62,345 nucleotides of DNA from Spirochaetota bacterium (GCA_004297825.1 SCSX01000062.1:1-62345), one strand, 5' to 3'. Shown: positions 1 through 23,495, counted from the first letter of the stretch. Numbers and translations are program-made. The notes: generated by a model from the sequence alone, not told the origin.

Positions 1-4
1 TATG

Positions 5-628
5 TTAAAATATATTATCATTATAGTTTACAGGGGCTACTTGTGAGATGTACTCTCGTACTTTTTTTAAGTCAAATATATAATTTCTAAAACTAGCAAC
101 CCGGTCAAGAGTAACTTCAAAAAAAGATTTATTAATATCTTGAGATTTCGACTTTTCAAAGGTTGTTGATGATTCGAAGAGATCGTGTATCGATAATAAT
201 GAATTGGATGGATTGGAGATAAACTCACGAAGTTTTGCACAATCCCATATTTGAGTAGATTCAACATCTTCTCCTTTCGCCTTTGTCCTAAAAATGACTC
301 TATTGCTAAATGCAATACCACCGAGACGTCCGATACCCCTAAAACCACGATAGCCTCTTCCAGCTTTATTGCTACTTCCTATTCCGCTCAATACTTCTTC
401 TGCCTTGCGAGCCTTAATGCCCGGACCATTATCATAAATTACTATTCGTTTATCTTCTGGGAAAAGAGTGACATTAACTTGCTTGCCCCTTTTATCTAGA
501 CTCGCATCAATAGAATCTACTGCATTCTGAATATACTCGCGATAAATCGACAATGGATCATTATACATTCCAGAAGTTAATGTCTCAAGAAGGTACATAC
601 CAGCTTTAAACGATGATTGTGATTTCAT
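5..628 (-). CDS. GHKL (Hsp90-like) ATPase domain protein, probably truncated
   Basis: The 207-aa product carries the three ATP-binding boxes of the GHKL fold: the N box around residues 32-41 (EYIQNAVDSI), the G1 box DNGPGI near 66-71, and a glycine-rich G2 lid GYRGFRGIGRLGG near 92-104. Proteins with this N-terminus normally continue past a conserved Q-V-A-P-V segment into a long C-terminal part. Here the frame stops at a TAA (positions 5-7) eight residues after that segment, so the protein is either a free ATPase domain or a gene broken by a stop or frameshift at the window edge. It begins 9 bp after the radical SAM stop, with AGGA 8 bp before the ATG, so the two are co-transcribed. The DNA is AT-rich, unlike the backbone. 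Substrate and partner are unknown. Confidence 0.75.
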   Translation of the reverse strand: MKSQSSFKAGMYLLETLTSGMYNDPLSIYREYIQNAVDSIDASLDKRGKQVNVTLFPEDKRIVIYDNGPGIKARKAEEVLSGIGSSNKAGRGYRGFRGIGRLGGIAFSNRVIFRTKAKGEDVESTQIWDCAKLREFISNPSNSLLSIHDLFESSTTFEKSKSQDINKSFFEVTLDRVASFRNYIFDLKKVREYISQVAPVNYNDNIF

Positions 629-637
629 ATAGAATTC

Positions 638-2056
638 CTAAGCCTCTAAATCTAATAATGCACTGTAATCGTTCTTTTCAGGTCTTTTGGGGATATAATA
701 TGTAAGGATCGAATGTAATTTTTTATTTTTTATAGACGCAATTGAATTCATCAAACCTTTTCTCGATGGGTTGCCACATAAGATGGAAAGCAATTCATCC
801 CTTTCGTTCTGTGTTAGTTTTCTAAACTTATTCTTCCAATCGATCTCTGCCGTTTGTAGTTCCCTACCGCGATTCATTAATATTGATTCAGGCATGTAAA
901 GTATTTCTCGAAATTCTTTTTCGCTTTCACCAAATGCACGATAAAAGAAATCTTCTCTAGGCATCACTGCACCTTTTAATACATTAAGAATTCTTTGAAC
1001 TCCTCTAATGAACTGCCAATTCCAATTTGGGCTGCTAATATATTTTCTATTAGTATCCAACAGCGGAATATATTTCATAGGAAATGAATAAATATTTAAA
1101 CCGTATTTACGATTAAGCTGTATATTTATCTCAAGACGTTTCCACAATTCCTCTGGACTATCGTTATAATTATATAGAATATAATTAGAAAGGTTCTGAA
1201 TTCCGTTTTGTGCAGCAAGTTCTACACCTCTCCGATAAACACTTTCAAGCTTTATCGAATCAAATGCAATTCTAAGGGGATTTATAGCTATCTTTGCTAA
1301 CGTATGTATGTTTTTTTCATCAATTCTTCTGGCATCTACACCTTGGTTAAAATCGACATGCCTCTGTTTATTATTGAGCTTAGAATTTTTCTCAAATCCA
1401 AGTTCCATAATATCTCTAATTATTTTATTAAATGACTTTGATGCAAGGATATTGTTATCCATCAATACAAGATGCGTTTTTTCACCATACTTGTTTTTTA
1501 TGCCATTCACGTATTCTTTTATGTTTATATAGTCTTGAAATTGTGGCTCGATTTCAGGTACTCCACAAAATTTGCACTTATTTTTACAGCCGCGCGTGCT
1601 ATAACCCAGGTAACTATCGCCTACTAGTGAATATTTAAATGGCGTGTCATTGAATAGCGAATAGTCTGGGATTAGTTCATCAACTATAATTTCATTATCA
1701 TCTCCCAGCATGCCCGGCCTATTAAGAAGCCCCTTAATTGGTACAACGCCAGTAGCTTCCCATAAATCATCATATTTTAAAGTAGCTAATATCCCCCCAA
1801 CTTTAATCCTATCAATGTCATCAATGATAGCTTTGTAAAAATTAATCGTATCGACAGTAATTTTCCAATTATAGGTGAAAAGTGTTGAGATGTAAACTCT
1901 ATCCCACTGTTGCAAAAAGGGATAAGAAGCATTAATTCCCTTATGGAAAAAAACATTATCGCCTAGTTGTTTATGATAAGAAGAAATTTTCATGAGCCCG
2001 ACGGGAGGATACTTTGTCTTATAATCGGGCTCGACGAGCAGGATATTTCTATTCAT
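638..2056 (-). CDS. Radical SAM protein of unknown function in an AT-rich island
   Basis: A 472-aa protein with a radical SAM [4Fe-4S] motif of the C-x3-C-x2-C type (CKNKCKFC) near residue 155, followed by a TIM-barrel-like region. The roughly 150 residues before the cluster begin NILLVEPDY and contain a PPVGLM segment, as in the cobalamin-binding-domain radical SAM proteins, but no clear cobalamin-binding DxHxxG motif is seen. The family is therefore a B12-binding-like radical SAM protein and the substrate cannot be inferred. It is the first gene of a leftward operon with the GHKL ATPase. Its promoter (TTGACG, 17-bp spacer, ATTATT) has a 20-bp palindrome in the spacer, so it is probably repressed by a ribbon-helix-helix protein. 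No clear ribosome-binding site precedes the ATG. Confidence 0.85.
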   Translation of the reverse strand: MNRNILLVEPDYKTKYPPVGLMKISSYHKQLGDNVFFHKGINASYPFLQQWDRVYISTLFTYNWKITVDTINFYKAIIDDIDRIKVGGILATLKYDDLWEATGVVPIKGLLNRPGMLGDDNEIIVDELIPDYSLFNDTPFKYSLVGDSYLGYSTRGCKNKCKFCGVPEIEPQFQDYINIKEYVNGIKNKYGEKTHLVLMDNNILASKSFNKIIRDIMELGFEKNSKLNNKQRHVDFNQGVDARRIDEKNIHTLAKIAINPLRIAFDSIKLESVYRRGVELAAQNGIQNLSNYILYNYNDSPEELWKRLEINIQLNRKYGLNIYSFPMKYIPLLDTNRKYISSPNWNWQFIRGVQRILNVLKGAVMPREDFFYRAFGESEKEFREILYMPESILMNRGRELQTAEIDWKNKFRKLTQNERDELLSILCGNPSRKGLMNSIASIKNKKLHSILTYYIPKRPEKNDYSALLDLEA

Positions 2057-2129
2057 ATTTGAAAGACACCATCATTCAATATCATTTTATAATCAAGTAT
2101 TTTAAAGTGATATAAATTAAATCAAATCG

Positions 2130-2158
2130 AATAATACGTATTTACGTAAATACGTCAA
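2130..2158 (-). promoter_or_regulatory. Promoter of the radical SAM/GHKL operon
   Basis: On the minus strand TTGACG (2158-2153) and ATTATT (2135-2130) are separated by exactly 17 bp. The spacer is almost wholly occupied by the palindromic operator at 2136-2155. Transcription would start about 65 bp upstream of the radical SAM ATG. Confidence 0.55.
2136..2155. promoter_or_regulatory. 20-bp perfect palindrome, likely ribbon-helix-helix operator
   Basis: ACGTATTTACGTAAATACGT reads the same on both strands and contains three ACGT cores at exact 8-bp spacing (2136, 2144, 2152). Tandem 8-bp half-sites are typical of MetJ/Arc/CopG-type repressors, and a small protein of that look is encoded 62 bp to the right. 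Because it lies between the -35 and -10 of the leftward promoter, binding would block RNA polymerase. The regulator assignment is inference. Confidence 0.65.
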
Positions 2159-2181
2159 GCAAAATTCGAAAATATTCATGA

Positions 2182-2210
2182 TTGACATTGATTTAATTGG
2201 CAGGTATTTT
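2182..2210 (+). promoter_or_regulatory. Promoter of the small RHH gene, probably giving a leaderless mRNA
   Basis: TTGACA (2182-2187), a 17-bp spacer and TATTTT (2205-2210) lie directly before the ATG at 2218. The expected transcription start is at about 2217-2218, so the message would begin at or next to the start codon. This fits the lack of a ribosome-binding site. Confidence 0.5.
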
Positions 2211-2217
2211 CGCATTT

Positions 2218-2391
2218 ATGAAAGAGAAGAATCCTAAAGAAGAAAAGCTGATAAGACCAACAGTCGCTTTCTCCGCAGAAGAAAATAAGCTGATAGATTA
2301 TTATTGTATAGATTTTGATATTAATAAGGGAGAATTCTTAAGAAGGGCTGCGCTTTATTGTATCACTAATAAAATCGACCTTAGAAAATAG
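2218..2391 (+). CDS. Small ribbon-helix-helix-like DNA-binding protein
   Basis: A 57-aa, lysine-rich protein. A short strand-like segment (RPTVAFSAEE) is followed by a helix, a turn with INKGEF and a second helix (LRRAALYCIT), which is the order of a MetJ/Arc/CopG ribbon-helix-helix domain. A TTG 21 bp upstream is in frame, but the ATG at 2218 fits better with the promoter, which would put the transcript start at this codon. It is divergent from the radical SAM operon, with a 20-bp palindrome of 8-bp half-sites between them, and is the natural candidate for its repressor. The fold call comes from pattern only. Confidence 0.6.
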   Translation: MKEKNPKEEKLIRPTVAFSAEENKLIDYYCIDFDINKGEFLRRAALYCITNKIDLRK

Positions 2392-2416
2392 TTATAAATC
2401 AATAAACATAATAAAT

Positions 2417-2650
2417 CTTTCCCTAAGCAAGCTCCACCATACAGCGTATGACGGGAATTTCCTGGGCATCAACCCGGACTACCGGATAGAAATCCGCGCC
2501 GACATACTCAAGGAGCAAGACGGCCCTATGCTGAAACACGGCTTGCAGGGCTTGCATGAAACAAAGATCATCCTTCCCTACCACGAGAGCGAACGCCCGG
2601 ACCAGGGATTTCTTGAGAGGCGCTATGTGCAATTCAAGAAGGCGGTATAA
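2417..2650 (+). pseudogene. C-terminal remnant of an HNH endonuclease
   Basis: An open frame without a start codon reads HHTAYDGNFLGINPDYRIEI and continues through a DGPMLKHGLQ-LH segment to a TAA at 2648-2650. This is the C-terminal end of a known type of HNH (restriction-like) nuclease, in which the HH and D-x-N-x-LGI residues belong to the HNH site. Everything N-terminal is missing, and AT-rich DNA begins just upstream at about 2415. The fragment therefore marks an insertion or deletion junction and is not expected to be active. Confidence 0.7.
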
Positions 2651-2753: not shown

Positions 2754-3098
2754 ATGACCACCCTTACGGAAACATCGATCGATCCGAAAATCAAGGCGGC
2801 CCTGAAAGCCGCCAAGGCGAAGATCACCGCGCACTTCGACGTCGAGACCATGATTCTCTTCGGCTCGGTCGCCCGGGGTGATGGCGACGAAGAATCGGAC
2901 GCGGATATTCTCGTCCTCACCAGGCGACTTCTTACCCGGGAAGAGCGTCATGGAATTACCGACATCGTGTTCGAAATCAACCTGGAAATGGGTACGAACC
3001 TCTCGACCGTGGTAGTGGACAGCGAATCATGGGAACATGGCATGTATTCGGTGCTTCCCCTGCGCAGTGAAATCCGCAGAGACGGCATCCTCATATGA
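2754..3098 (+). CDS. MNT-family minimal nucleotidyltransferase (antitoxin type)
   Basis: A 114-aa protein with the nucleotidyltransferase signature GSVARGDGDEESDADILV near residues 37-54: the GS-x-ARG turn followed by the metal-binding D-x-D. MNT proteins of this size pair with HEPN-domain RNases; the MNT enzyme AMPylates and neutralises the HEPN toxin. The pairing is visible here because its stop overlaps the ATG of a HEPN-like frame (ATGA, 3095-3098). That partner is cut short after 33 residues, so this antitoxin appears to be left without an intact toxin. It has its own strong promoter. Confidence 0.85.
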   Translation: MTTLTETSIDPKIKAALKAAKAKITAHFDVETMILFGSVARGDGDEESDADILVLTRRLLTREERHGITDIVFEINLEMGTNLSTVVVDSESWEHGMYSVLPLRSEIRRDGILI

Positions 3099-22429: not shown

Positions 22430-22864
22430 CTAGATGGTAATACCCATCATTTCTTTGAAATCATCGCTAATGGTCAAATCTTCTGCAATTTCTTCAATAA
22501 CTTTCGTCAATTCCTCGGGGTGTAGAGTGCGAATTATCTGCAAATCATCCCTATCATATTTTTCCTCTAAGTCCTGAACACTACACAGGCCAATTTTTCT
22601 AATCTCTATAACATCATAGTTCTCTGGTGCTTTTGGATTAGGAAGTTTTACAACAGGAATAAATGACCCCTTATATGTAGTGGCTTGACTTGTAGTTAGA
22701 CAAAATACAAAAGCGGTATTTTCCAGCACTGGCGATGATAAAATTAATAAATGTTTGGGGGTTGGTTCATTTGGGTCATCTGAAAATACAAAATTTCTAT
22801 CCCGAATAATAACACCCGCACGGAGGGTGGAAAGAAATACAGCCCATGGGATTTTTAATGGCAT
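22430..22864 (-). CDS. Unknown protein, probable toxin of a Panacea module
   Basis: About 144 aa. Its start (ATG 22864; TTG 22870 also in frame) overlaps the end of the Panacea-domain gene, so the two are translationally coupled. The sequence has alternating hydrophobic strands (KHLLILSSP, TAFVFCLTTSQ, GSFIPVVKLP) and a helical C-terminus (EELTKVIEEIAEDL). This outline is loosely like PemK/MazF-type SH3-barrel RNases, but no signature is convincing. Panacea antitoxins are known to pair with many unrelated toxins encoded next to them. The DNA is AT-rich, in line with recent acquisition. Confidence 0.65.
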   Translation of the reverse strand: MPLKIPWAVFLSTLRAGVIIRDRNFVFSDDPNEPTPKHLLILSSPVLENTAFVFCLTTSQATTYKGSFIPVVKLPNPKAPENYDVIEIRKIGLCSVQDLEEKYDRDDLQIIRTLHPEELTKVIEEIAEDLTISDDFKEMMGITI

Positions 22865-23469
22865 GTACAATTATTTTCAAGTGCCTGTAAATCTCTCTCC
22901 ATGCTTTCTATTTCTTTATATTGTTCAGGGGTAACTTTATCTATCGCGAATAGTTTAATATCAATTTCATCACCGTTATTTACTGCCGATTTCCATGGCG
23001 CTTCCAAATGTGTCTGTCTGCTAAGCTGAGTTGCGGTAGTACTAAAATACTTCTTTGCGACTTCATTCATTATTTCCCTTTCGGATTGTGAAAACCACTT
23101 TCCTTCAAACTCTTTTTTAGGAACCAGGCGGTGAAGTATATATTCTTTTTCATTTTCTTCATACTTTAATTTTTCTACCTTGATAGCGATGTACTCGCTC
23201 ATAAAGTTTTCTGAATTATCGTATTCCTGTGCATCTACTAATGCATGTACAGCGTGGTATGCTTTGTGCGGGACAGGCCCTTCAGCGTCTTTGTTATACG
23301 TGTCTTTTAATACTTTGCGGCCATATTTGATTAAATGATGACAATCTAAATAGTATAGTAATTTATTGGCTTTGACTGCGCCGCAGTTCTCAGTATTTTT
23401 TGCAAAAAATATCAGGGCATTCGCAAGCCTTTTGTTTTCTCTTTCATCTTTATAGGCTTTGATGTCCAT
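22855..23469 (-). CDS. Panacea (SocA-like, DUF4065) domain antitoxin
   Basis: About 204 aa. The N-terminal half has the Panacea signature: KANKLLYYLDCHHLIKYGRK, followed by a short GPVPHKAYHAV loop. These domains serve as neutralising modules of toxin-antitoxin pairs and resemble the SocA proteolytic-adaptor antitoxin. The C-terminal half is charged and helical and probably carries the toxin contact. GTG 23478 opens the frame, but ATG 23469 has GAGAGGG at proper distance. The promoter (TTGATT, 17 bp, TTATAT) overlaps an inverted repeat, which suggests autoregulation. It lies upstream of, and overlaps, its likely toxin. Confidence 0.8.
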   Translation of the reverse strand: MDIKAYKDERENKRLANALIFFAKNTENCGAVKANKLLYYLDCHHLIKYGRKVLKDTYNKDAEGPVPHKAYHAVHALVDAQEYDNSENFMSEYIAIKVEKLKYEENEKEYILHRLVPKKEFEGKWFSQSEREIMNEVAKKYFSTTATQLSRQTHLEAPWKSAVNNGDEIDIKLFAIDKVTPEQYKEIESMERDLQALENNCTCH

Positions 23470-23495
23470 ACTCGCCACCCTCTCTATCTATATAT

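Follow-up and report, generated by a model that had tools for sequence, protein, structure and literature searches.

A radical SAM protein with a GHKL ATPase partner as a candidate DNA-marking unit of restriction-modification-like systems

What might a radical SAM enzyme do next to a chaperone-like ATPase on AT-rich DNA? The question is raised by the left end of a 62,345-nt stretch from a Spirochaetota bacterium (GCA_004297825.1, SCSX01000062.1:1–62345), analyzed here at full length and referred to as the window. A preliminary description, made from sequence alone, had noted the co-transcribed genes of a radical SAM protein of the B12-binding-like type (rSAM) and an Hsp90-type GHKL ATPase on AT-rich DNA, and had read them as a mobile pair with a possible role in defense. 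Gene identities and coordinates were confirmed (Table 1), the intergenic gap being 9 bp. So was the claimed sharp difference in base composition: GC content is 33.5% over bases 1–2400 vs. 58.9% in the remainder, the lowest 2.4-kb stretch elsewhere reaching 44.8%. The supposedly broken HNH nuclease at the boundary is indeed a remnant, 71 residues of which align with the C-terminal ends of four proteins annotated as HNH endonucleases (40–44%). By-eye inspection of the 1-kb junction stretch on the opposite side, on contig C19, revealed no HNH N-terminal half, which would have demonstrated insertion into a single HNH gene. The rSAM family was found in only 1/296 Spirochaetota genomes (E 1e-40), as would fit an acquired cassette.

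What had been overlooked is that the window constitutes one complete contig (C62), so that the GHKL gene is truncated by the contig edge, with further parts of the system lying on a different contig. Searching the same genome with a profile built from seven GHKL homologues assigned the N-terminal part to the window and the C-terminal part to the extreme start of C19; the two pieces match residues 8–214 (60% identity) and 317–442 (47%), respectively, of one 453-aa homologue from locus L019. As these are successive parts of the same protein, the GHKL stop codon at window positions 5–7 is premature relative to homologues, and might be either a contig-end artefact or a genuine lesion. C19 has a GC content of 30–41% over its first ~4.4 kb before returning to 48–62%, and the AT-rich stretch carries ParB, nuclease and SNF2 helicase genes. 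If the join between C62 and C19 is accepted—it was inferred from both contig ends, not sequenced—C19 496–4404 (locus L132) would be the other half of the system. The reading of the pair as mobile was supported, but rSAM and GHKL likely form just one end of this larger set.

Table 1. Features of the AT-rich island on the window and, by inferred join, on contig C19
Feature	Position	Strand/orientation	Remark
AT-rich acquired DNA	1-2400	.	33.5% GC; right-hand part of the island, continuing on C19:1-4420
GHKL (Hsp90-type) ATPase	5-628	(-)	N-terminal 207 aa of about 450 aa; C-terminal rest at C19:3-410
rSAM ORF	638-2056	(-)	472-aa radical SAM protein, B12-binding-like N-terminal domain; candidate DNA-modifying enzyme
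Predicted rSAM-GHKL promoter, TTGACG-16-TATTAT	2131-2158	(-)	Overlaps palindrome; consensus match only
Perfect 20-bp palindrome ACGTATTTACGTAAATACGT (10+10)	2136-2155	.	Candidate operator
Predicted promoter of small divergent gene, TTGACA-17-TATTTT	2182-2210	(+)	Just upstream of the gene; consensus match only
Small divergent RHH-like protein, 57 aa	2218-2391	(+)	Candidate repressor, weak support
HNH endonuclease C-terminal remnant	2435-2650	(+)	At right edge of AT-rich island
Second ParB	C19 496-1479	convergent to GHKL	AT-rich C19 stretch
SNF2 helicase	C19 1472-2962	convergent to GHKL	AT-rich C19 stretch
PD-(D/E)xK nuclease, 144 aa	C19 2962-3396	convergent to GHKL	AT-rich C19 stretch
ParB	C19 3397-4404	convergent to GHKL	AT-rich C19 stretch

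The rSAM protein carries the cluster motif C157-x3-C161-x2-C164, whose three cysteines are retained in 52/52 homologues, establishing the presence of the radical SAM superfamily motif; its Pfam Radical_SAM score lies slightly below the cutoff (26.4 vs. 29.5 bits). An AlphaFold2 model (mean pLDDT 93.3) retrieved radical SAM enzymes in Foldseek searches (E about 1e-10), and VIA-align ranked AprD4 (Z 19.5), MgmA (19.1), MiaB (17.2) and TsrM (16.9) as structural neighbors over 317–352 residues. The model aligns to AprD4, TsrM and MgmA from residue 1–4 onward, revealing an N-terminal B12-binding-like domain. Cobalamin users are among the best matches, and cobalamin binding by rSAM would be an inference from the fold alone; AprD4 itself is not known to use B12. 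While the overall fold is the same as in AprD4, MgmA, TsrM and MiaB/RimO, identity to these proteins amounts to just 12–18% and the substrate of rSAM is not known. The three radical SAM cysteines are the sole conserved ones across the 52 sequences, which therefore lack auxiliary-cluster cysteines. Sulfur insertion of the MiaB type was rejected, as the three extra conserved cysteines of MiaB/RimO methylthiotransferases are missing, and so was a viperin identity, given the absence of a PADLOC viperin match and a structural match (Z 9.7) covering merely the barrel.

The ATPase scored 42.6 bits for HATPase_c_3 (cutoff 25 bits; E 7.7e-11), and its closest solved chains belong to HtpG/Hsp90 (E 2.6e-10 for HtpG), in agreement with an ATP-binding N-terminal domain. 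Sequence matches to Hsp90 chains stop by profile position 147; the resemblance is thus seen for the N domain. As to the 144-aa C19 protein, the model of a homologue from locus L032 was confident (pLDDT 92.8) and its structural matches fell mainly among nucleases of the restriction type or related ones (BspD6I, NucS/EndoMS, Can2, VRR_NUC, FokI, EcoT38I; Z 5.5–7.4). Each individual match remains below Z 8. Together with a conserved PD...ExK signature, in which P51-D52 and E67 are invariant and K69 nearly so, the model predicts a PD-(D/E)xK fold.

To survey conservation, an rSAM alignment was queried against 84,980 species genomes, yielding 447 relatives, of which the best-scoring 80—bacterial and archaeal—were kept; since these are the top-scoring loci, the frequencies given below lean towards the query. 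The same alignment retrieved 30 loci from viral and prophage contigs, where the single rSAM protein as query had found no match. Two pairs of loci (L024/L025 and L048/L049) possess identical rSAM proteins and neighborhoods despite assignment to different phyla, and are likely to reflect mis-binned metagenome contigs.

The preliminary description had proposed to check whether an adjacent GHKL ATPase recurs, and this was borne out. GHKL is the direct neighbor of rSAM in 66/105 loci, mostly overlapping it or lying no more than about 30 bp away, and is not adjacent in the other 39. Further neighbor clusters comprise ParB (47 loci), SNF2 (44), the small nuclease (35) and DGQHR/DndB-like proteins (27), and most rSAM loci contain restriction-type genes. 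Among 72,556 plasmids, rSAM was detected with near-full coverage in 12 records, and a reverse search with GHKL returned exactly the same 12. The nuclease query hit six records, all within the rSAM set and with the two genes no more than ~5 kb apart; no nuclease was detected in the remaining six. Nuclease without rSAM was hence never observed in plasmids, while rSAM often occurs without nuclease, an asymmetry expected if the nuclease needs a mark. That the 6/6 linkage serves protection of self DNA is, however, an inference. Complete or near-complete copies exist in sequenced, cultured strains. For instance, Rhizobium leguminosarum WSM1325 plasmid pR132505 encodes a 339-aa protein, nuclease, helicase, ParB, DGQHR, rSAM and GHKL in a single run, and pNL1 of Novosphingobium aromaticivorans encodes DGQHR-rSAM-GHKL.

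rSAM was found together with five named backbones. Backbone A is the ParB-nuclease-SNF2-ParB arrangement, often with DGQHR added. Backbone B consists of PbeA-PbeC(DndD-like)-DndE-like (PADLOC: PbeA 5e-225, PbeC 8e-164), and backbone C of the DISARM genes drmA (4e-165) and drmB (1e-52), usually with GHKL as well. Backbone D combines a HerA-type ATPase, a 383-aa protein and GHKL; here, naming rests on sequence inspection and existing annotation, PADLOC and Pfam having given no clear family. In backbone E, a PD-Lambda-5_A homologue (E 4e-60 in L046) adjoins rSAM (L040, L043, L046, L112, L114). Mapped onto the rSAM tree, a quick maximum-likelihood reconstruction with SH-aLRT support only, a minimum of 12 changes is needed to account for the backbones and of six to account for GHKL presence, showing that rSAM has switched backbones repeatedly.

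Comparison of homologous operons also showed an exchange of genes in one position. On a plasmid of the haloarchaeon Haloprofundus (L135), PbeA-PbeC-DndE-like is followed by an N6_N4_Mtase gene (E 3.5e-36), whereas rSAM occupies this methylase position in L022–L025, L030, L033 and L035, the PbeA proteins being 39–41% identical between L135 and the rSAM-bearing operons. Another homologous Pbe operon (L134), without rSAM, carries dndCDE. The clean exchange of methylase for rSAM depends on a single methylase-bearing plasmid, L135. Motif scans identified almost no DNA-methylase motifs near rSAM in homologous loci, and none in the DISARM-type loci L056, L062, L084 and L087, which by this criterion lack drmM. 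Exceptions are L046, with true DNA methylases, and L040, with a motif-bearing methylase, so the methylase is not always displaced. Nine of the 12 DndD-bearing loci lack an adjacent GHKL and three have both; GHKL may serve DNA engagement as DndD does in Pbe-type loci. Gene content and linkage, conservation, fold, slot exchange and repeated backbone switching are what our data show directly.

Several loci possess additional neighbors. On the viral contigs L108 (6312–10615) and L117, an rSAM family member has two notable neighbors, one a gene with weak Cas7/RAMP similarity and the other encoding a further radical SAM protein. In several alphaproteobacteria (L011–L014, L095, L139), a PIN_8-like protein and a second GHKL ATPase adjoin the cassette, and might represent an added effector. 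An unannotated contig of a human fecal 'Bacteriophage sp.' (MT836743; L016) encodes, consecutively, a 383-aa protein, a HerA-type ATPase, GHKL, rSAM and a protein of the Schlafen/AlbA type.

Radical SAM chemistry also serves small-molecule synthesis and the modification of proteins and RNA, and the structural neighbors of rSAM point several ways: AprD4 is an aminoglycoside dehydratase, MgmA a protein methylase and MiaB an RNA enzyme. It is the location of rSAM in the self-marking slot, its varied restriction partners and the failure to find the nuclease without it in plasmids that lead us to read it as a DNA modifier. We favor, with a probability of roughly 0.6, an acquired restriction-modification-like system against invaders, whose self mark on DNA comes from rSAM, mostly acting together with GHKL. 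Accordingly worded as a model, rSAM would modify host DNA, in most cases assisted by GHKL, which would act as a DNA clamp or in licensing, and the module of ParB, PD-(D/E)xK nuclease, SNF2 helicase and second ParB would attack or block DNA without the mark, a task that would elsewhere fall to modules of the Pbe, DISARM, HerA or PD-Lambda-5 type. The rSAM(-GHKL) unit would then be a portable substitute for a DNA methyltransferase or the Dnd phosphorothioation genes. DNA as the substrate, the mark as a sign of self, the role of GHKL, repression and an anti-phage outcome are all inferred; no modified base has been measured and the chemistry is unknown. The defense role suggested earlier is thus supported as a reading, yet remains an inference from gene context.

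A bolder reading, for and against which we see the balance as level, holds that this is a widespread new self-marking class: rSAM, which an Hsp90-like GHKL clamp would often load, would install an undescribed DNA base or backbone modification by radical chemistry, and would have been recruited by at least five restriction backbones in place of methylation or phosphorothioation.

Alternative explanations fared less well. rSAM might make a small-molecule or nucleotide product, either an alarm signal or a chain terminator of the viperin kind, by which the nuclease/helicase module would be armed while DNA is left untouched. Viperins are a precedent for radical SAM enzymes that yield antiviral nucleotides, and the rSAM barrel does match viperin, but this match ranks far below those to AprD4, MgmA and MiaB and has no counterpart in PADLOC. 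Moreover, the position in which a DNA methylase or dndCDE can take its place is one for modification genes, and movement between five different backbones would be surprising for an enzyme that makes a signal. We hence consider this possibility unlikely. Similarly improbable is an action on invading DNA, in which rSAM would, for instance, remove or alter lesions or the base modifications that protect phage DNA, thereby exposing it to the nuclease. The DNA-centered gene context would fit, the nuclease linkage would also be explained, and spore photoproduct lyase provides a precedent for a radical SAM enzyme acting as a DNA lyase; however, the exchange with methylase and Dnd genes is left unexplained, and there would be no reason for Pbe and DISARM types to lack a self mark. 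Nor is it likely that the target of rSAM is one of the system's own proteins (ParB, GHKL or the nuclease) or else a peptide, along the lines of RiPP maturation or of glutamine methylation in MCR. Although the protein methylase MgmA is among the top structural matches, no protein partner is common to all backbones: GHKL is missing next to rSAM in the 39 loci mentioned above, and the Pbe, DISARM and HerA types have neither ParB nor the nuclease. A conserved precursor peptide did not come to notice either, albeit without a dedicated search for one. Finally, an ordinary metabolic or housekeeping pair without a role in conflict is very unlikely, as we found no evidence in its support and it is contradicted by gene neighborhoods, the rarity within the phylum, the AT-rich island, plasmid and prophage copies and the constant linkage with restriction-type genes; homologues standing alone or in housekeeping operons without the ATPase, named beforehand as the refuting case, are the opposite of what was observed.

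Our preferred reading, a DNA self mark supplied by rSAM, invites comparison with known systems. Relatives with backbone B share PbeA, PbeC and DndE-like genes, in the same order and followed by a candidate modification gene, with the DndCDEA-PbeABCD phosphorothioate defense (Xiong et al. 2019, PMC6459918), but with rSAM occupying the place of DndCDEA or of a DNA methylase. PbeA and PbeC are absent from the system on the window itself, and no DndC sulfurtransferase, DndD or DndE was found among the island genes scanned. Relatives with backbone C share DrmA and DrmB within one operon with DISARM, of which a DNA methyltransferase is typical (PMC9142583); in them, rSAM(-GHKL) replaces the DrmM methyltransferase. 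While drmA and drmB are found in L056, L059, L062, L084 and L087, they are missing from the window's island. With Dpd, which inserts 7-deazaguanine in DNA, similarities concern the SNF2 helicase, resembling ZorD and DpdE, and the DGQHR/DndB-like neighbor of many relatives, resembling DpdB; the scanned island genes, however, include no DpdA-type transglycosylase, rSAM being the candidate modifier there. A PD-Lambda-5_A homologue is common to backbone E and PD-Lambda-5 (Vassallo et al. 2022, PMC9519451), the published system being labelled by a methyltransferase match whereas rSAM adjoins here. With drmA/drmB, DndCDE and DpdA missing, membership of the window's own system in classical DISARM, Dnd or Dpd was rejected, and the classical restriction-modification criterion is not met either, as there is no DNA methyltransferase among the island genes scanned.

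In the literature searched (supplements excluded, subscription papers mostly not covered), an association of radical SAM proteins with DISARM, ParB/SNF2, DGQHR or DndE is undescribed, and neither of the two closest surveys, a 2024 Dnd reappraisal and a 2025 YprA-helicase preprint, mentions it in the main text. The placement of rSAM-GHKL in the methylase position hints at an undescribed way by which bacteria mark their own DNA as 'self'. If rSAM does mark DNA, many bacteria and some archaea would harbor an unknown natural DNA modification installed by radical chemistry, plus a nuclease module reading it. If true, this would also provide a candidate partner for methylase-less DISARM-like loci and for some 'solitary' PbeAC pairs, an open point in the literature: 165/553 PbeAC pairs have no nearby Dnd or methylase genes, and pairing with other modifications has been suggested (Xiong et al. 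2019, PMC6459918).

As for regulation, a palindromic operator beside a divergent ribbon-helix-helix (RHH) gene had been proposed to act as a switch. The palindrome is real and perfect over 20 bp, arms of at least 10 being reached in only 12/5000 dinucleotide shuffles of the intergenic region; its role as an operator remains a candidate one. Promoter-like matches occur at background number, so both predicted promoters rest on consensus alone. The RHH switch is plausible, with weak support: profile matches of the small divergent protein to DUF6290 (E 0.0083) and RelB (E 0.019) are both below cutoff, and in the closest three relatives (L019–L021) the region upstream of rSAM showed no RHH gene. 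Two small RHH-like ORFs were noticed by eye in L099, of which the one scanned matched weakly (E 0.38). By inference, the divergent protein would probably repress the rSAM-GHKL operon via the palindrome in the source genome.

Beyond the cassette itself, genes for MNT-like nucleotidyltransferases flank the island on both sides (window 2754–3098; L132 4796–5170), and might mark a hot spot or be leftover toxin-antitoxin modules. Lastly, a second AT-richer stretch of the window (22430–23478) encodes a SocA/Panacea antitoxin-like protein (Pfam E 8.9e-19) and a 146-aa partner, and is likely a toxin-antitoxin island.
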